Assembly: GCA_030041545.1 (NCBI GenBank)
Contig: JASHNQ010000077.1
Coordinates: 1 to 35,890, forward strand
DNA: 35,890 bases
Source of the DNA: a candidate division FCPU426 bacterium
GTDB taxonomy: Bacteria > Oederibacteriota > Muellerivitia > Muellerivitales > Muellerivitaceae
Direction of reading: 5' to 3'
In this document: positions 8,631 through 34,878 of the stretch, one piece after another
How positions within the stretch are numbered: the first letter of the stretch is position 1
Layout of the letters: every line of letters starts with the position of its first letter
Made by a program: the position numbers and the translations under genes
The notes under the pieces: model-generated
The model's database searches: none
Told to the model about the DNA's origin: nothing
Seen by the model: only the letters and a program-made list of their open reading frames with translations

Positions 8631-8942
8631 TCACTTCCACAATATCATGCACAATCCCCCGGCCACTACCAACACGCCTCCAACCCAACGGGCCGCGGAC
8701 AAGGTTTCACCAAAAACCAATAAGCCGATGGCCTGTGAGGCCACGAAAAACACGGCCATATAAACTCCCAATAACCTGCTGAAATCCCACTTGGGAAGGT
8801 TGACGAAAAGGCCGTAGGCGAAAAGCGCGGCGGCTCCGAGGACGAATCCGGGAATGCGCCCCGACTTGAGGCCCCAGCGGACCAGGGCGTCCCCTCCCAC
8901 CTCCAAGACAGCCGCCAAAAGCAGAAAGGGCAATACTTTCAT
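8631..8942 (-). CDS. SMR/DMT-type small membrane transporter
   Basis: This 103-residue protein has four hydrophobic segments and no large loops, the size and layout of small multidrug resistance proteins (about 105-110 residues). The first helix carries LLLAAVLEVGGDALVRWGLK, with a membrane-embedded glutamate at about residue 14, as in SMR proteins. The last helix ends GGVLVVAGGLCMILWK, a common DMT-superfamily ending. The ribosome binding site is weak. It follows the 26-residue peptide and kdpC on the same strand and may be read from the kdp promoter. Substrate is unknown. Confidence 0.75.
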   Translation of the reverse strand: MKVLPFLLLAAVLEVGGDALVRWGLKSGRIPGFVLGAAALFAYGLFVNLPKWDFSRLLGVYMAVFFVASQAIGLLVFGETLSAARWVGGVLVVAGGLCMILWK

Positions 8943-8984: not shown

Positions 8985-9065
8985 TCAATCATTGAAAAAC
9001 ACGTAATAAACGCTCAAGGCCAATACGCTCACGATCAAGATTCCGGGTAATAAAAGGGCGCTCAT
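8985..9065 (-). CDS. 26-residue membrane peptide after kdpC
   Basis: MSALLLPGILIVSVLALSVY continues with YVFFND. It is one hydrophobic span, beginning 25 bases after the kdpC stop. GAGAGGA lies upstream at about 10 bases spacing, slightly long. It shares the PGILIV core with the peptide at 8149-8223. Its position in the kdp operon and its size resemble KdpF, but the sequence does not match the true kdpF at 14171. It may be an accessory subunit of KdpFABC or of the SMR protein that follows (speculative). Confidence 0.5.
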   Translation of the reverse strand: MSALLLPGILIVSVLALSVYYVFFND

Positions 9066-9090: not shown

Positions 9091-9687
9091 TCATTTGGAG
9101 GTTCCCAAGGCATCCAAGGCCAGGTTCAGTTTTAATACGTTCACGCCGGGATCGCCGATGAAACCCAGCCACCGGCCCTGGGTGTTTTGGGCCACCAGTT
9201 CCCTTACCTTCGCGGGGTCCAGGCCCCGGGCCTTGGCCACGCGCGCCACCTGGTATTCCGCCGCGGCCGGGCTGATGTGGGGGTCCAGGCCCGACCCCGA
9301 GGCCGTCACCAAGTCCATGGGAACGGGCGCGTCCGCCATTTCGGGATCGGCTTTCTTGAGGGCGTCGATACGTCCCTGGACCGTTTTGATGAAATCGGGG
9401 TTCGTGGGGCCCGAATTGGAACCTCCCGAATTGGCCGCGTTATAGGCATAGGGGGAAGTGGCGGAAGGCCGGCTCCAGAAATACTTGGCGTCGTCGAAGG
9501 GCTGGCCGATGAGCTCCGATCCCACCGTTTTCCCGTCCACTACGATCAAACTGCCGTTGGATTGGCGGGGGAACAATACCTGCCCCAAGAGGGTGACGAC
9601 ACCCGGGTAAACAAGACCGGTAATGACGGTAAACACGATCACGAACAGGAACGACAACCTCAATTGAATCAACGTTTCTTTCAACAT
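9091..9687 (-). CDS. kdpC: Potassium-transporting ATPase subunit C
   Basis: KdpC (198 residues; the Escherichia coli protein has 190) is the single-span periplasmic subunit needed for assembly and activity of the KdpFABC pump. Residues about 12-33 form the membrane anchor. Family landmarks are GSELIGQPF near residue 57, YFWSRPSAT, the Asn/Ser-rich segment [17 protein letters not shown], and [20 protein letters not shown] near residue 135. The ATG follows GGAGG closely, and the gene starts 13 bases after the kdpB stop. Confidence 0.98.
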
Positions 9688-9700
9688 TTCGTCCTCCTTC

Positions 9701-11776
<2,076 letters not shown>

Positions 11777-11843
11777 TTTAAATTCCCTTCTTTCTTTTCC
11801 TTCCCTCTCCGTGGCCTTCCCGCCCGTCGAGGCGGGTTTCAGG

Positions 11844-12065
11844 TCATCTTTCCTTGCCGTTTTTCTCCGCGAAGCCCTGGACGAGGTCTTGGAGGCGCCC
11901 CGCCCGGCTGAAACCCTTCTTTTCTTTTTCACGGCGCACCATCCTCAATACACCCAATACCATCGCGGACCAGGCCACCAGGAAAAAGGAAACCTGGATG
12001 TTCTCCAGTTGGGTGCGAGCCCCGTTCACCAGCAGCCCAATCATTTCCTTTTCTACAGTCAACAT
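11844..12065 (-). CDS. Small membrane protein between kdpA and kdpB
   Basis: The 73-residue ORF has one hydrophobic span (about residues 24-42, [20 protein letters not shown]) followed by a basic, charged tail (VRREKEKKG and so on). It ends 67 bases before kdpB. The ribosome binding site at ATG 12065 is poor, and an internal ATG at 12044 is an alternative. Its composition looks like a real small membrane protein, not random sequence. Standard kdp operons have no gene here. It may be an extra subunit or a decayed insert that came with the neighbouring palindromic repeat. Confidence 0.45.
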
Positions 12066-12300: not shown

Positions 12301-14100
12301 TTAAAAATGGATCATTTTTAAATGTTCAACTATGGGTCCCAGGGCCAGCGCCGGGAAGAAGGTCAGCGCCCCCACGATGAGGACCGTGGAAACCAGCATG
12401 ATGATGAAAAGCACCGTATGCGTGGGCAGCGTCCCAGAGCTCTGGGGCACGATCTTTTTCCTCGCCAGGCTTCCCGCGATGGCCAGGCAGGGAATGGCCA
12501 GCCAGAACCGGCCGAACCACATCGCCACAGAGCCCATGAGGTTGTAAAAGGGCGTATTGCCGTTCAACCCCGCGAAGGCGCTTCCATTGTTGGCCACCTG
12601 GGAAGTGAAGGCGTAAAGGATCTCGCTGAACCCATGCGCCCCGGGGTTGGAAACCCCCGCCCGGCCCGCGTCGGTGACGACGCCGATGGCCGTCAAGGCC
12701 AGGATCGCCATGGGGGGGATAAGGATGACCAGGGAGGCCATCTTCATCTCGTAGGATTGGATCTTCTTGCCCAAATACTCGGGCGTGCGGCCCACCATGA
12801 GCCCCGCCACGAAAACCGCGACGATGGCGAAAATAATCATCACATAAAGGCCTGAGCCGACTCCTCCCGGCGCCACCTCGCCCAGCATCAACATCCACAA
12901 GGGAACGAACCCGCCCAGGGGCGTGAAGGAATCATGCATGGAGTTGACCGCGCCGCAGGAAGTGCCGGTGGTGATGGTGGCCCAAAGCCCTGAATTGACG
13001 ATGCCGAAGCGGACTTCCTTCCCCTCCATGTTCCCGTCATTCAAGGAAGCACCTTCTTTGCCGACCGTTAAGTGATTCAATAATGGATTGCCGGCCTGTT
13101 CCGAATGGACGCAGAGGAACACCATCGGCACCAAAAGGAGAAGCATGGCGAAGAGAACGGCCCAACCTTGCCGCTTGTCCCCCACCATGACCCCGAAGGT
13201 ATAGCAAAGGGCGAACCCCACCACGAGAAGCGCCAACATCTCGATCAGGTCGGTCAAGGGATCGGGATTCTCATAGGGATTCGCCGAATTGGCGTTATAG
13301 AACCCTCCGCCGTTGGTGCCGAACTGTTTGATGGCGATCTGGGAGGCCACCGGACCCACGGCCAGCGATTGCTCGGTCACGGCCACATGGGTCACCTGCG
13401 GCTTCCCGTCCACGGTCACGGGCGTACCTTGCGCGTTGGTGACGGGCTGGTCATAGGAGGTGGGCTGCACCAGGGTGGCGCTGGGGTAATTGCTGAAGGT
13501 CTGTGGGATTCCCCGGCTGATGAGTGCCAGGGCAATCGCTACGCAGATGGGCATCAAGATGTAGAGGGTCGTACGGGTCATATCCACCCAGAAGTTTCCC
13601 AACAGTTTGGTTTCCTTCCGGGCGAAACCACGGATAAAGGCCGCCAGGGTGGCCATGCCCGAGGCCGCGGAAAGGAAATTATGGACCGCCAGGCCGGCCA
13701 TTTGGGTGAAATAGCTCATCGTGCTCTCGCCGCCGTAATTCTGCCAGTTGGTGTTGGTGATGAAGCTGATGGCGGTGTTCATGGCCAAGTCGGGCGGCAC
13801 CGCGCTCTGGCCCGCGGGGTTGAGGGGCAGGTGGTTCTGGAGCCGCTCGATGGCGTAAAGGATGAGTCCTCCCACGACGTTGAAGATCAGCATGGCCAGG
13901 GCATAGCCCTTCCAGTCCATTTCCTCCTCCGGCCGGACGCCGCAGATCTTATAGACCAGGCGTTCCAGCCAGCCGAACCACTTGCCCAGGAAGAAAGGCT
14001 TGTGCTCGTAGACCCGGGCCATATACCAGCCCAGGGGTTTCACCAGCAAAAGCAAAAGGACAAAGAAAAACCCGATTTGCGTCCATTGATTGGTCGTCAT
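12301..14100 (-). CDS. kdpA: Potassium-transporting ATPase subunit A
   Basis: KdpA is the channel-like potassium-selective subunit, related to SKT channels, in the inner membrane. The start is ATG 14100, with TTGGAG upstream; an in-frame ATG at 14112 lacks a site. The product has 599 residues, longer than the E. coli protein (557). The excess is mostly an extracytoplasmic loop near residues 215-255 (rich in Thr, Val and Gln), a form seen in other long KdpA proteins. Selectivity-filter segments seen are GGESTMSYFTQMAG near 120, GTNGGGFYNANSANPYENP near 265, TTGTSCGAVNSMHDSFTPL near 385, and NNGSAFAGL near 510. It follows kdpF in the operon. Confidence 0.98.
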   Translation of the reverse strand: MTTNQWTQIGFFFVLLLLLVKPLGWYMARVYEHKPFFLGKWFGWLERLVYKICGVRPEEEMDWKGYALAMLIFNVVGGLILYAIERLQNHLPLNPAGQSAVPPDLAMNTAISFITNTNWQNYGGESTMSYFTQMAGLAVHNFLSAASGMATLAAFIRGFARKETKLLGNFWVDMTRTTLYILMPICVAIALALISRGIPQTFSNYPSATLVQPTSYDQPVTNAQGTPVTVDGKPQVTHVAVTEQSLAVGPVASQIAIKQFGTNGGGFYNANSANPYENPDPLTDLIEMLALLVVGFALCYTFGVMVGDKRQGWAVLFAMLLLLVPMVFLCVHSEQAGNPLLNHLTVGKEGASLNDGNMEGKEVRFGIVNSGLWATITTGTSCGAVNSMHDSFTPLGGFVPLWMLMLGEVAPGGVGSGLYVMIIFAIVAVFVAGLMVGRTPEYLGKKIQSYEMKMASLVILIPPMAILALTAIGVVTDAGRAGVSNPGAHGFSEILYAFTSQVANNGSAFAGLNGNTPFYNLMGSVAMWFGRFWLAIPCLAIAGSLARKKIVPQSSGTLPTHTVLFIIMLVSTVLIVGALTFFPALALGPIVEHLKMIHF

Positions 14101-14170: not shown

Positions 14171-14260
14171 TTAAAACCATTCGGGTTTTAAGAGCGCCAG
14201 GACCAGGTAAACCAAAAGGCCCACCGACACGGCGCCGCTGACGATGTAAATCAGGTTCAT
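14171..14260 (-). CDS. kdpF: KdpF small subunit of the potassium ATPase
   Basis: MNLIYIVSGAVSVGLLVYLV continues with LALLKPEWF, 29 residues. This is the standard KdpF size and form: one span with a LLVYLxxALLxPExF ending. KdpF stabilises KdpFABC in the membrane. Its ATG overlaps the stop of the upstream 34-residue ORF in an ATGA tetranucleotide, implying translational coupling. kdpA starts 70 bases downstream. Confidence 0.95.
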   Translation of the reverse strand: MNLIYIVSGAVSVGLLVYLVLALLKPEWF

Positions 14261-14361
14261 GGCTCGCCCTCCATCATCTTGTCCAAGGCCTCGATCAGCC
14301 AAACGGTTGAAACGGACAGGGCCAAAAAAATCACGATGCACCAGAATTCCAGCATGGTCAT
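14257..14361 (-). CDS. 34-residue membrane peptide coupled to kdpF
   Basis: MTMLEFWCIVIFLALSVSTV continues with WLIEALDKMMEGEP. It is one hydrophobic span with an acidic C terminus. Its start overlaps the stop of the preceding ORF (ATGA, 14358-14361) and its own stop overlaps the kdpF start (ATGA, 14257-14260). GGGGAGGG lies just upstream of the start. These overlaps on both sides are strong evidence of translation. I know no described kdp gene of this form; the Met at residue 3 is an alternative start. Confidence 0.75.
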   Translation of the reverse strand: MTMLEFWCIVIFLALSVSTVWLIEALDKMMEGEP

Positions 14362-14504
14362 TCCCTCCCCGCATGGATGAACACCGTAGTTTTTCCCAGG
14401 CGTTTCTCGTTGTGCCTTTTCCTGGCCCAATGGAAGGTTTCGCCTAAGAGCAGGCACAGTCCGCTAAAAAGGACCGGGCTCGACAGGAATAGAACCTTGA
14501 TCAT
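14358..14504 (-). CDS. 48-residue leader protein of the kdp operon
   Basis: MIKVLFLSSPVLFSGLCLLL is followed by a basic, polar tail (GETFHWARKRHNEKRLGKTT and so on). The start has AAGGAG seven bases upstream. Its stop overlaps the start of the next ORF by ATGA. It is the first gene after the predicted kdp promoter (14552-14591). One span with a positively charged cytoplasmic tail is likely. Family and function are unknown. Confidence 0.65.
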   Translation of the reverse strand: MIKVLFLSSPVLFSGLCLLLGETFHWARKRHNEKRLGKTTVFIHAGRE

Positions 14505-14551
14505 GGCTTTCTCCTTATTCCAAGAGGCGGGGTTTTCCCTCCGTCAAGGCA

Positions 14552-14591
14552 AAGATAAGGCGAAACCGGATAAGTATTCCGTTAAGAGGGA
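14552..14591 (-). promoter_or_regulatory. Paired-repeat promoter of the kdp operon
   Basis: On the minus strand the two 11-base units end CTTAAC (complement of 14581-14591) and CTTAT (14570-14580). After exactly 12 bases comes TATCTT (complement of 14557-14552) as -10. Transcription is predicted to start near 14545, about 40 bases before the first ORF. This fits activation by a KdpE-type regulator occupying the -35 region. Confidence 0.65.
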
Positions 14592-14619
14592 TTTGGAATG
14601 CATATGGGAAAAATTAAAA

Positions 14620-14880
14620 TAAAGCGGATTAAAAGTCCGGATAGGCCGTCACTGGAACGGATGGCTGGGGGGATGTTTCGCCGGGCGGCCCTACGCCCTT
14701 GGAAGACGCCCAGTAGGACGCGCCTGGCCCCAATTCGGCGTTGGGCCGGCTCTCTTCGAACCTGCTATTTTTTGTTCTTTAATCCGAGGTTGAGAGGGGG
14801 TGTCACGATGCCGGTGCGCCGACCCACCGAAAGATTCCCTCCCGGGGCAGATGGACGCTCGCGCAAAAAATCCAGCTAGG
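14620..14880. other. Gene-free GC-rich stretch between kdp and the tandem membrane genes
   Basis: No convincing ORF is present. A + strand frame of 93 codons (14598-14879) has an Arg/Pro-rich, non-protein-like composition and no ribosome binding site. Several GC-rich inverted segments (for example around GCCGGGCGGCCCTACGCCC, then TTGGGCCGGC) suggest structured RNA. I could not match it to 6S, SRP, RNase P or tmRNA signatures. A T6 tract follows near 14768. Confidence 0.35.
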
Positions 14881-15083: not shown

Positions 15084-15440
15084 ATGAAAAAGAAAGAAGT
15101 CTTGAGCATCCTGGGATTGTTCACTGCCACAGGCCTCATGTTGATCGCCATGGGCTTATTGTCCATGCCCCAGGACCCTTCCCTTTCCCTGGTTCAATTA
15201 CTCCAGCAGCTCTGGGTAGACCGGCCCGTTTTTTCCGGGGTCATGATGGTTTACTTCGCGATGATGTTCATTTGTGATGCCTGGGTGGCGGTGGGCCTCC
15301 TTCACGACAACCATCAATCCGCCAAAAGGGATTCCTTGAAAACCAGCGTCGCCCGCAAGAAAGCCGGGAGTCCATCCGGCCTTGCGGAGAACCAGGCTGA
15401 TTCGGAGCAGAACTTAAGCTTAGTGGAATCTCATTCGTAA
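15084..15440 (+). CDS. Small two-span membrane protein, tandem copy 1
   Basis: The product has 118 residues. A first hydrophobic segment lies at residues 6-28, then a polar loop with SLSLVQLLQQLWVDRPVF, and a second segment at about 52-73 (GVMMVYFAMMFICDAWVAVG). A long polar, Ser-rich tail follows. It is paralogous to the next gene: both share SLxQxLxQLW, a xPxFxxxM turn and a (M/L)xxDxWVxxGxLxxN end. The ribosome binding site GAGGAGG is strong. I do not recognise the family; no enzyme motif is visible. Confidence 0.8.
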   Translation: MKKKEVLSILGLFTATGLMLIAMGLLSMPQDPSLSLVQLLQQLWVDRPVFSGVMMVYFAMMFICDAWVAVGLLHDNHQSAKRDSLKTSVARKKAGSPSGLAENQADSEQNLSLVESHS

Positions 15441-15458: not shown

Positions 15459-15725
15459 ATGAAAAAATCGCAACTCTTAATCGCGATGGCGATGATGACG
15501 GTCATGGGGATCGTAATGACCGCCGCTGGGATTTTGAGCCTCTCCGAACAATCCGAGGGCGTTTCCTTAGGCCAGGCCTTGAGTCAGTTATGGGAGCTGC
15601 ACCCGGCCTTTGGCTGGTCGATGGCTTTTTACTGCGCCTTTATGGTGTTGGCTGATCTTTGGGTGATCGCGGGAGCGCTTTTGAAGAACAATGCTTCGCC
15701 CAAGACGGAACCCGCCGCGCAATAA
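15459..15725 (+). CDS. Small two-span membrane protein, tandem copy 2
   Basis: The product has 88 residues, with segments at about 7-28 and 51-73 and a short polar tail. It starts 18 bases after copy 1 with a GGGGGA site and is followed by a strong terminator, so the two genes form a two-gene operon. The shared loop pattern (SLGQALSQLWELHPAFGWSM here) points to duplication. The aspartate inside the second hydrophobic segment (LADLWVIAG) is conserved between copies, as is a tryptophan two residues later. Function is unknown. Confidence 0.8.
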   Translation: MKKSQLLIAMAMMTVMGIVMTAAGILSLSEQSEGVSLGQALSQLWELHPAFGWSMAFYCAFMVLADLWVIAGALLKNNASPKTEPAAQ

Positions 15726-31185: not shown

Positions 31186-33873
31186 TCATCCTTTTTTATC
31201 CGCGGAGGACTCCAATGGCAACGAAAACTCAAAATACATCCCCCCCTCGGGCCGGTTGTCCGCGGTCAGGACCCCTCCGTGGATGTCGATGATGCCCTTG
31301 CAGATGGCCAGCCCCAGCCCGGCCCCGGTTTTGCCCGTCTGGGAGCCCCGGTAAAACTTGTCGAAAAGCCGGGGCAGGTCTTCCTCCCTTACCCCCGGCC
31401 CCGAATCCGCAACCCGCACATACCATTGCTTGCGGAAAACCCAGGTGGAAATCTCGATGGCGGCCGAGGGGGGAGTGTATTTGAGGGCGTTGTCCAAAAG
31501 GTTGACCAGCACCTGTTCGATCAAAAGCCCGTCCATGGGCACCAAGGGCAGTTCGGCCGGGATTTTGGTGTTCAAAACCCGCTGGCCCAGCCTTTTTTCG
31601 ACCCGCGCGATGGCCGACCCGATGACTTCCTCCGGATAATTGGGTTCCTTCCCCAACTGGATGGCCCCTGATTCCAGTTTCGTCATTTCCAACAGGTTGT
31701 TGACAAGCCGCTCCAGCCGGTCCGTTTCCTCATGGACGTTCTCAAGAAAGTCCCGCCGCGTCTCGACGCTCAGTTGCTCCCCGGACTCCAAAAGGCCTCC
31801 GATGGAGCCTTTGATGGTGGCTAAGGGCGTCCTCAAGTCATGGGAAACGGAACTTAAAAGGGAACTTCGCAATTTTTCCGTTTCCATTTGAAGCTGGGTT
31901 TCCTGTTGTTTCTTGGCCAGCTCGTCCCCGGCCACGGCCAGGGCGGTTTGGTGGGCGAAAGCCTCCAGCAGGTGCAATTGTTCGGGAAGGAAAGGCTTCT
32001 GGAATTGGCGGGATTTTACGCCCAAGGCCCCGATGGGAGAACCGGTGGCGATCAGGGGCAGGTAAAGGGCCTCGGCGCTAGGCAGGGTATCCGTGCCCCG
32101 TCCGGCCATTTGGCCCAGGTCGTAAGTCCAATGGGCCACCGCCATTTCCTTGGGAGTCATCTTGAAATCGGCGATGTCCCCATATTGGGCCGCCAATCCC
32201 CCCTTTTCATCGGGCAGGAATGCCACCACGGAGCACTCAAAGAATTGGGAAATATGCTTGAGGGCGATCAGCAAAAGTTCCTCCGTGCCCCGGCTGGAGG
32301 CCAGTTCGCGGGAGAGGCCGTAGAGGGCCGTCGTGCGGCGTTCCTGCTCGCGGGAAAGCCGCGCTTGGGTCCTAACCCTCAGCATCAGGCTGCTGATGGA
32401 AAGGGAGACGAACAACATGACGAAAAACACGAGGATATAGCGGTTGTCGGACACGTCGATGGAGAAAAGGGGCGGGACGAAGAAAAAATCCAGGCAAAGG
32501 ACGCTGATCACCGCGAAAAGGACCGAAGGGCCGAAGCCCTGGATGGCGGCCAGGGAAAGGCTGCCCAACAGGTAAATCATGGCGTCGTTGGCCAAGTTCA
32601 AATTAGTGTCCCCAATGGGAGGGAAGACGAGCCAGGAAAGGGCGGTGCAAATCGCCGCCCAAACCAGGGCCAGGCCGTAGCCGGCCCAGTTCAGTTGGAT
32701 CGGCCTGCGTTGGGCCGCCGTTTTCCGGACGGGAGGTATCTCCCACTTGGCCACGTAAACGTCGATGCCCAGGCCGGCCCGCAAAAGCACGTCGACGGGC
32801 GATGTCTTAAGGAAAGTCCTCCAGGATCTCCGGGGAGGTTGGCCCACCAAAATCTTGGTGACTTTCCGGGATTTGGCGAAAGCCGTTATTTCCTCCGCGA
32901 CGTCCACCCCGCTGAGGAGCACCGCTTCCCCGCCCAATTGCTCGGCCAGTCGCAGGTTTTGGATGGCCCTGGACTCCGCCTCCGCGTTTCCGGCCTGTTC
33001 CGGCGTTTCCACGTAGGCCGCGATCCAGTCGATGCGCAAGGCCTTGGCCATGCGGTGGGCGGACCGGACCAGGTTGGTCGAGGCTCGGGTGGGGCCCACG
33101 CAGACCAGCAGGTGGTCCTGCGTCTCCCAGTTATGCGTGACCGCCATGTCCCGCCGCAAGGCCTGCACCTGGTCGTTCAGGCGGTCCGCGGTCATGCGGA
33201 AGGCCATTTCCCGCAAGGCCACCAGGTTGCCCTTTTGGAAGAAGTTCTGGACGCCCCGGGAGTCCTGGCCCTGCACGTCCACCCTTCCATCGGCCAGCCT
33301 TTCCCGCAGGTCGTCCACCGGAAGGTCCACCAGTTCCACCTCGTCGGCCTTTTCCAAGACCGTATCGGGCAATGTCTCCCATTCGATGGTTCCCGTGATG
33401 CGGGTGACCACGTCGTTGAGGCTTTCCAGGTGCTGGACATTGAGCGTGGTATAAACGTTGATGCCGCTGGTAAGGATCTCCTGGACGTCCTGCCAGCGCT
33501 TCAAATGCCGGGAACCCTTGGCGTTCACGTGGGCCAGGTCGTCCACCAAGAGGAGGGAAGGCTTGCGGTCCAAGGCGCCGTCCAAATCCAGTTCCCTCCA
33601 GGGTTTTTGGTCGTGCGTCACTTCCAGGGCCGGCAGGACTTCGAGGCCTTCCAAGAGGGCTTCGATCTCGGTACGTCCGTGGGTTTCCACGATCCCCACG
33701 CCCACGTCCATCCCCTGGGCTTTCCGGACGTGGGCGGCCCGGAGCATGGCGTGGGTCTTGCCCACCCCCGGAGCATAGCCGAAGAAAATGGTCAGTTTCC
33801 CCCGGCCCTTGACGCTTTCCTCCTCGTGGAGGCGCCTTAAAAGCGTTTCCGGATCGGGACGTTTGTCATTCAT
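31186..33873 (-). CDS. kdpD: Full-length KdpD sensor histidine kinase
   Basis: The 895-residue product starts at ATG 33873 (GGAAG upstream). Its N-terminal KdpD domain has the Walker A motif GYAPGVGKTHAM near residue 32 and LLVDDLAHVNAKGSRHLKRW near 112. A Usp-like domain (about 250-370) is followed by four membrane segments (DUF4118, about 395-500, with FGPSVLFAVISVLCLDFFFV). Next come a GAF-like part (about 530-650), the phosphoacceptor H678 in SSVSHDLRTPLATI, and the ATPase domain (NLLDNALKYT, DSGPGV, GAGLGLAIC). KdpD senses potassium limitation and ionic stress and phosphorylates KdpE. C-di-AMP binds the KdpD Usp domain in Staphylococcus aureus; whether that holds here is unknown. Confidence 0.97.
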   Translation of the reverse strand: MNDKRPDPETLLRRLHEEESVKGRGKLTIFFGYAPGVGKTHAMLRAAHVRKAQGMDVGVGIVETHGRTEIEALLEGLEVLPALEVTHDQKPWRELDLDGALDRKPSLLLVDDLAHVNAKGSRHLKRWQDVQEILTSGINVYTTLNVQHLESLNDVVTRITGTIEWETLPDTVLEKADEVELVDLPVDDLRERLADGRVDVQGQDSRGVQNFFQKGNLVALREMAFRMTADRLNDQVQALRRDMAVTHNWETQDHLLVCVGPTRASTNLVRSAHRMAKALRIDWIAAYVETPEQAGNAEAESRAIQNLRLAEQLGGEAVLLSGVDVAEEITAFAKSRKVTKILVGQPPRRSWRTFLKTSPVDVLLRAGLGIDVYVAKWEIPPVRKTAAQRRPIQLNWAGYGLALVWAAICTALSWLVFPPIGDTNLNLANDAMIYLLGSLSLAAIQGFGPSVLFAVISVLCLDFFFVPPLFSIDVSDNRYILVFFVMLFVSLSISSLMLRVRTQARLSREQERRTTALYGLSRELASSRGTEELLLIALKHISQFFECSVVAFLPDEKGGLAAQYGDIADFKMTPKEMAVAHWTYDLGQMAGRGTDTLPSAEALYLPLIATGSPIGALGVKSRQFQKPFLPEQLHLLEAFAHQTALAVAGDELAKKQQETQLQMETEKLRSSLLSSVSHDLRTPLATIKGSIGGLLESGEQLSVETRRDFLENVHEETDRLERLVNNLLEMTKLESGAIQLGKEPNYPEEVIGSAIARVEKRLGQRVLNTKIPAELPLVPMDGLLIEQVLVNLLDNALKYTPPSAAIEISTWVFRKQWYVRVADSGPGVREEDLPRLFDKFYRGSQTGKTGAGLGLAICKGIIDIHGGVLTADNRPEGGMYFEFSLPLESSADKKG

Positions 33874-33898
33874 TGAGACTTCCATTTAACTGTCATTG

Positions 33899-34079: not shown

Positions 34080-34799
34080 TTATTTTGAGGGATTGCCGGC
34101 GGGTTCCTCATACTTCAACCGGTAACCCACTCCCTGCTCGGTGAGGATGTACTTGGGATGGGCGGGCTTTACCTCGATTTTCTGCCGCAATTGGTGGATA
34201 TAAAGGCGTAGGGAAGCCCCCTGTTCCCCGCTGTTGGGCCCCCAGATCTCCTGGACGATCTGCTTTTGCGTCACGACCTTGCCCACGTAACGGATCATGA
34301 GGGCCAATAAATCGTATTCGTTGGGCGTCAGGTGTACTTCCTTCCCCCGGACGGTCACCATGCGGGCGGACAGGTCCACCTTGAAATCGGGGGTCTCGAA
34401 GACCGATTCCTCCCCGCCCTGCTTGAGCCGCATCACGTGGCGCAGCGCCACCCGGACCCGGGCCATCAGCTCTTCCACGTCGAAGGGCTTGCCCAGGTAG
34501 TCGTCCGCCCCCGCGTCCAGCCCCTCGACCTTTTCCTTCTCCTTGCCGCGGGCGGTCAGGATGATGATGGGCACGGTAGTCCATTCCCGGAGGTGTTTCA
34601 GCACCTCCAAACCGTCCATGTCCGGCAGCCCCAGGTCCAAAAGGATGACGTCCGGTTTGTGGGAGGAGGCCATCGCCAGTCCCTCTTCGCCGGTTCCGGC
34701 TTCCAGGACCCTGAATTCGTGGCTTTCCAGGTAGGGCTTGAGGAACCGCCTAATGGGCTGCTCGTCCTCGATCATTAAAATGACGTTTTTGTTTTGCAT
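34080..34799 (-). CDS. kdpE: KdpE response regulator paired with kdpD
   Basis: From ATG 34799 (GAGGTG six bases upstream) the protein has 239 residues; the ATG at 34829 adds 10 residues without a site. The receiver has E11, D12, phosphoacceptor D55 and the lysine of YLGKPF. The winged-helix domain has the conserved QEIWGPNS and ends VGYRLKYEE. It lies upstream of kdpD on the same strand and is the likely direct partner of KdpD, controlling the kdp operon. It is a close duplicate of the gene at 26688. Confidence 0.95.
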   Translation of the reverse strand: MQNKNVILMIEDEQPIRRFLKPYLESHEFRVLEAGTGEEGLAMASSHKPDVILLDLGLPDMDGLEVLKHLREWTTVPIIILTARGKEKEKVEGLDAGADDYLGKPFDVEELMARVRVALRHVMRLKQGGEESVFETPDFKVDLSARMVTVRGKEVHLTPNEYDLLALMIRYVGKVVTQKQIVQEIWGPNSGEQGASLRLYIHQLRQKIEVKPAHPKYILTEQGVGYRLKYEEPAGNPSK

Positions 34800-34828
34800 G
34801 TCTTTCACCTCGAAAGAAGTCCTTTTCA

Positions 34829-34878
34829 TTTTAACCCGGGTCGCCGCTTAAGGAACCATTCACTTTTGTTAACTCTCC
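34829..34878 (-). promoter_or_regulatory. Candidate repeat site upstream of kdpE
   Basis: CTTAAGGAACC (34847) and GTTAACTCTCC (34868) lie 21 bases apart, the spacing between pairs elsewhere; the partner units are degenerate. TTAAAA (complement of 34834-34829) is 12 bases past the first, a weak -10. It fits autoregulation, with low certainty. Confidence 0.4.

Follow-up and report, generated by a model that had tools for sequence, protein, structure and literature searches.

What do the two very short open reading frames (ORFs) that precede kdpF in a candidate division FCPU426 bacterium encode, and do they belong to the Kdp potassium pump or to its control? The question is raised by a stretch of 35,890 nucleotides (contig JASHNQ010000077.1, assembly GCA_030041545.1; the window, by which we mean the whole of this stretch). 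A preliminary description of the sequence had seen in these frames either extra small subunits of the pump or a leader-peptide control system, on the premise that standard kdp operons start with kdpF. Here we find that the second frame, ORF2, most likely codes for a real protein and belongs to a widespread family, called X below, for which neither Pfam nor NCBIfam has a model. The features concerned are as follows.

14358–14504, minus strand: ORF1, 48 codons, one hydrophobic segment and a basic tail; lineage-specific
14363–14370, minus strand: Shine-Dalgarno-like sequence GGGGAGGG for ORF2, with GGAGG 8 nt before the ATG at 14355; GGGGAGG is kept in several relatives
14257–14355, minus strand: ORF2, the member of family X, 32 codons from its most likely start, MLEFWCIVIFLALSVSTVWLIEALDKMMEGEP; the in-frame ATG at 14361 is a less likely start, from which the frame was originally listed (14361–14257, 34 codons)
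14171–14260, minus strand: kdpF, 29 codons, with an ATGA overlap with ORF2; assigned by PF09604 and TIGR02115, both above cut-off

All three frames exist where they had first been placed. The 29-codon ORF is identified as KdpF by TIGR02115 (39.4 bits, cut-off 26.85) and by PF09604 (35.7 bits, above the cut-off). ORF1 and ORF2 matched neither of these KdpF models, nor any other model in Pfam and NCBIfam.

A small gene family directly upstream of kdpF

Family X, as defined here, comprises peptides of 26–34 amino acids (aa) with an acidic residue after the start, one helix, a central FF and a C/L-[DE]-[RK]-[LM] end, encoded directly upstream of kdpF. Its pattern can be written MD...FF.AL...Y...C[DE]RL over a single helix. 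The acidic residue right after the start is D in 90% and E in 8% of cases (D/E at position 3, 98%), the FF pair is conserved at 80/71%, a further Y/L is present, and the C-terminal C-[DE]-[RK]-L is kept at 76% (C), 79% (D/E), 72% (R/K) and 76% (L). ORF2 fits this description (MLEF...IF.AL..STVWLIEALDKM), reading ML-E-F...IF-LAL..STVWLI-EAL-DKM when divided into its segments, and lies directly upstream of kdpF with an ATGA overlap. It scores 51 bits against the family profile hidden Markov model (HMM), in whose training set it is itself included, and AlphaFold2 predicts a single helix over residues 2–28 with a mean predicted local distance difference test (pLDDT) score of 91. Comparison of nine X members with Pfam and NCBIfam gave only below-cut-off matches (PsbT, YiaAB, FXYD and DUF4234).

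The HMM, built from 44 members (alignment A1), was used to scan up to 200 nt upstream of kdpF at 143 loci from several phyla. A match was found at 119 of the 143 loci (~83%), compared with 0/143 on the reverse strand at the same threshold; in a first scan, 76 of the 119 matches came from outside the training alignment. X precedes kdpF in 117/117 loci where both genes were scored. At these loci X overlaps kdpF in 43 cases and ends 0–20 nt before it in 69; the spacing is −4 or −1 nt in 41. Distances of this kind are what translational coupling would lead one to expect. Independently of the HMM, a hydrophobic transmembrane (TM) ORF of 24–40 aa ending between −25 and +8 nt of the kdpF start was present at 103/143 loci, against 11/2860 (0.38%) in dinucleotide-shuffled copies. 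The premise that kdp operons start with kdpF holds for Escherichia coli, but not for most of the kdp operons sampled here.

Among named loci with kdpF, 73 of 75 carry X, covering Acidobacteria, Chloroflexi, Planctomycetota, Nitrospirae and alpha-, beta- and gammaproteobacteria. X is also found in Deinococcus radiodurans, Bacillus badius, Sinorhizobium, Rhizobium, Azospirillum, Paracoccus and Thalassospira. In the GTDB family of the window (f1), each of the seven genomes with KdpA carries X at the kdp operon, including genome G002 with two copies for its two operons, and genome G007 has neither KdpA nor X. All 8 X matches in these genomes (E < 1e-4) lie at kdp operons, beside kdpA. On plasmids there is one X match per record, adjoining kdpA in the records listed in both searches, so that across the f1 genomes and plasmid records the occurrence of X is restricted to kdp loci. 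KdpF tails of the type P[ED].[FL] are associated with the presence of X (Fisher p = 0.0066), a figure that ignores kinship and is not used as support.

A different gene order was seen in the phylum of genome G055 (loci L143–L160), where kdpF is followed by a small TM ORF and then kdpA. This small ORF ends in DFIDKI and encodes peptides like MIAFLSAFAGIAAMYAVLWFFTDFIDKI; considered as a candidate X, it was rejected as a resemblance only (0.5–4 bits, below the HMM threshold).

Conservation of the coding sequence was measured on pooled alignments of up to six copies from three genera. The ratio of non-synonymous to synonymous change (pN/pS) was 0.42 for ORF1, 0.28 for ORF2 and 0.27 for kdpF, and substitutions were in excess at third codon positions in each (binomial p = 0.0045, 0.015 and 0.0016 respectively, with columns treated as independent). 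By these sequence measures ORF1 and ORF2 both look coding, and ORF2 is under purifying selection at a level like that of kdpF. Synonymous and non-synonymous changes being equally frequent, which the preliminary description had named as the outcome that would sink its proposal, is not what relatives of this bacterium display; their reading frames are conserved.

Start of ORF2, coupling to kdpF and the upstream ORF1

Two ATGA sequences, at 14361–14358 (ORF1/ORF2) and 14260–14257 (ORF2/kdpF), had been taken as successive overlaps chaining all three genes. We compared aligned kdp upstream regions, eight from family f1 and one from another family of the same order (genome G008). The ATG at 14361 is variable, being replaced by ATA in G001 and G003 and by GCA in G004, and stands only 2 nt after GGAGG, whereas the ATG at 14355 is invariant in f1 and 8 nt after GGAGG. 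Because the downstream codon is both conserved and well spaced and the upstream codon is neither, ORF2 most likely starts at 14355, 2 nt past the ORF1 stop. The ORF1/ORF2 overlap is probably incidental. The ORF2/kdpF overlap, in contrast, is genuine, and is kept in all f1 copies and in the order-level relative G008.

ORF1 does have the good ribosome binding site first ascribed to it (AGGAG, 6 nt before the ATG). A search of upstream regions for both peptides, as had been suggested, returned very different distributions, with the ORF2 family widespread across phyla and ORF1 confined to two genera, g1 and g3, where five copies are spread over four genomes and all lie at kdp operons. Modelled alone with AlphaFold2, ORF1 gave a low-confidence structure (mean pLDDT 65). 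It could well be a recently arisen upstream ORF with little protein function, kept mainly for ribosome loading onto ORF2, a possibility that we take seriously while leaning somewhat away from it. Its restriction to two genera is consistent with this, as are the loss of its stop codon in G004, where the frame continues into the ORF2 region, the different ORFs with a TM segment and basic tail that take its place in G003 and G005, and the lack of any ORF there in G006 and G008. Homology between the TM and basic-tail ORFs of G003 and G005 and ORF1 of g1 and g3 was considered and is unsupported (hhalign probability 1.2%, E = 0.043). The pN/pS ratio and third-position excess of ORF1, and a GLCLL.GET segment that is invariant over the five copies, argue against this possibility.

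Pump subunit, sensor kinase partner or leader

On balance we favour X as an accessory single-helix Kdp subunit, translationally coupled to KdpF, with its association with the pump inferred from sequence. X would be made together with KdpF from the coupled frames and inserted as a single transmembrane helix; judging from charge distribution, the acidic N-terminus would probably face outwards and the [DE]R/DK end the cell interior. KdpF is described in the literature as a stabilising subunit of KdpFABC, and by analogy X would most likely pack beside KdpF and the KdpA/KdpB helices, where it would most likely stabilise or tune the high-affinity K+ pump as an extra accessory subunit. ORF1 would then be a third membrane microprotein of the operon, its translation probably feeding ribosomes into ORF2. 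The idea of extra small subunits is thus well supported for ORF2, through its sequence and gene order across phyla, whereas the data for ORF1 point only to a lineage-specific membrane peptide.

X resembles KdpF in its length (~29 aa), its single transmembrane helix and its place among adjacent, coupled genes of the same operon. It differs in lacking the YL..AL..PE.F signature of KdpF, in carrying MD...FF...C[DE]RL and in its absence from E. coli; the X HMM scores KdpF peptides at only ~0–4 bits. In its proposed mode of action, X would be like CydX and the FXYD proteins of Na,K-ATPase, one-helix accessory subunits that tune or stabilise a larger membrane enzyme, although no sequence relation was found (the FXYD Pfam model matched one X member at E = 0.25, below cut-off). 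The KdpFABC structure papers that we examined describe the complex of E. coli, where X is absent, and so could not have revealed it.

The alternatives involve the remainder of the operon and its regulators, which are laid out in the window as follows.

8985–9065, minus strand: hydrophobic 26-codon ORF MSALLLPGILIVSVLALSVYYVFFND, directly 3' of kdpC
9091–9687, minus strand: kdpC (PF02669, E = 1.6e-79)
9701–11932, minus strand: kdpB, longest ORF, N-terminal start uncertain; E1-E2 ATPase and hydrolase domains
12301–14100, minus strand: kdpA (PF03814, 800 bits)
14541–14623, minus strand: conserved block TTTTAAT..TTTCC ... CCTCTTAAC.G.AT..TAATCC ... CTTATCTT, upstream of ORF1
31186–33885, minus strand: KdpD-type sensor kinase (PF02702, HisKA, HATPase_c)
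34080–34829, minus strand: response regulator adjoining KdpD, KdpE candidate (Response_reg and Trans_reg_C)

X might instead be a membrane peptide that regulates KdpD, the K+ sensor kinase, or another membrane partner, and no pump subunit at all. A KdpD domain is present in 53 of the 53 kdp genomes tested, kdpD is the immediate divergent neighbour of the kdp operon in G001, G003, G004, G005 and G008 (~17 kb off in the window), and a two-hybrid assay showed an interaction of KdpF with KdpD (PMC3618439). However, the genomes tested include some without X, in which KdpD-domain genes are equally present, so this co-occurrence does not discriminate. Myxococcus-like genomes also retain X, although their KdpD frames, at ~385–520 residues, are too short for a full kinase, and gene order ties X to kdpF, not to kdpD. 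We therefore regard a KdpD-directed peptide as unlikely. Less probable still is a leader function, in which translation of the small ORFs, rather than their product, controls that of kdpF. Such a role would suit the overlapping or adjacent stop and start codons at most loci, and the position of the first ORF, with its good ribosome binding site, downstream of the conserved block. Coupling of this kind is nevertheless expected of any operon gene, and the sequence, transmembrane helix and terminal motifs of X are conserved across phyla, with a pN/pS as low as that of kdpF. A simple scan for the terminator-like hairpins of an attenuator gave 0 sites, and an equally simple Rfam scan found no match and no riboswitch. 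The leader-peptide control initially offered as an option is consequently disfavoured for ORF2.

Three observations weigh against X as a pump subunit with ORF1 as a further microprotein. No recognisable X was found at the kdpF loci of E. coli, Lactiplantibacillus plantarum and Halobacterium or at three gammaproteobacterium-like loci, and X is therefore dispensable for a working Kdp pump. The co-occurrence with KdpD is equally complete, and a regulatory role towards KdpD fits it as well. Finally, the stop codon loss in G004 suggests weak constraint on ORF1.

The conserved block at 14541–14623 is kept in all eight f1 copies, including that of G006, which has no ORF1, and is a plausible candidate for the promoter and KdpE operator. 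It has the look of a direct repeat, CTTAAC..(about 6)..TTATC/TAATC. The source genome (G000) encodes two KdpD-type kinases, the one in the window (C6, 31186–33885) and another on C114.

At the other end of the operon, the 26-codon ORF after kdpC is a fourth kdp microgene. Counterparts with a YVFFND end follow kdpC in G001 and G003, and it was seen only in this GTDB family. A gene for a YnfA/UPF0060-type small membrane protein lies 3' of the kdp operon (8631–8942, minus strand), as it does in G001 and G003. Divergent from kdp are two adjacent and mutually similar small membrane-protein ORFs, at 15084–15440 (118 aa, MKKKEVLSILGLF...) and 15459–15725 (88 aa, MKKSQLLIAMAMM...), both on the plus strand and without a Pfam match.

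Earlier sightings and the composition of the Kdp pump

X is mostly unannotated in genomes. The plasmids of Rhizobium johnstonii and R. etli have kdpF annotated and X not, and Azospirillum lipoferum has a hypothetical protein at its place. Among the plasmid X places listed, 3/60 carry 'hypothetical protein', which is a lower bound as the PLSDB gene table is incomplete. Literature searches on kdp operons, small ORFs and Ribo-seq gave no description of X, and the text of a Sinorhizobium meliloti small-proteome paper makes no mention of kdp.

Hydrophobic peptides are the products of orfZ and orfY in Clostridium acetobutylicum, and the gene order in Alicyclobacillus is kdpZFABCN. For the C. acetobutylicum operon, PMC5401905 cites the designation kdpZYABCXDE, the two small genes upstream of kdpA having been named in 1997. 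This pair is like X and kdpF, with kdpZ in what would be the position of X; the likeness is one of gene position alone, and as far as we found neither a family nor a function has been assigned. These genes may be an earlier sighting of X. What is new here is the family itself, how widely it occurs and how it is coupled; we do not claim to be the first to see a small ORF at this place.

The subunits listed for KdpFABC, a P-type ATPase familiar from textbooks, are those of E. coli. We put forward, tentatively and with slightly more doubt than confidence, that in most bacteria the Kdp pump has five subunits, among them a second single-helix one beside KdpF, overlooked because the model E. coli lost or never had it, and that in this lineage ORF1 and the post-kdpC peptide may add a third and a fourth. 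If true, the usual composition of the Kdp pump would be incomplete, X being found at ~83% of sampled kdpF loci while having no family model. For the annotation of many genomes a simple rule follows, namely to look before kdpF, and X gives a direct opportunity to test whether a single-helix peptide tunes a P-type ATPase in bacteria.
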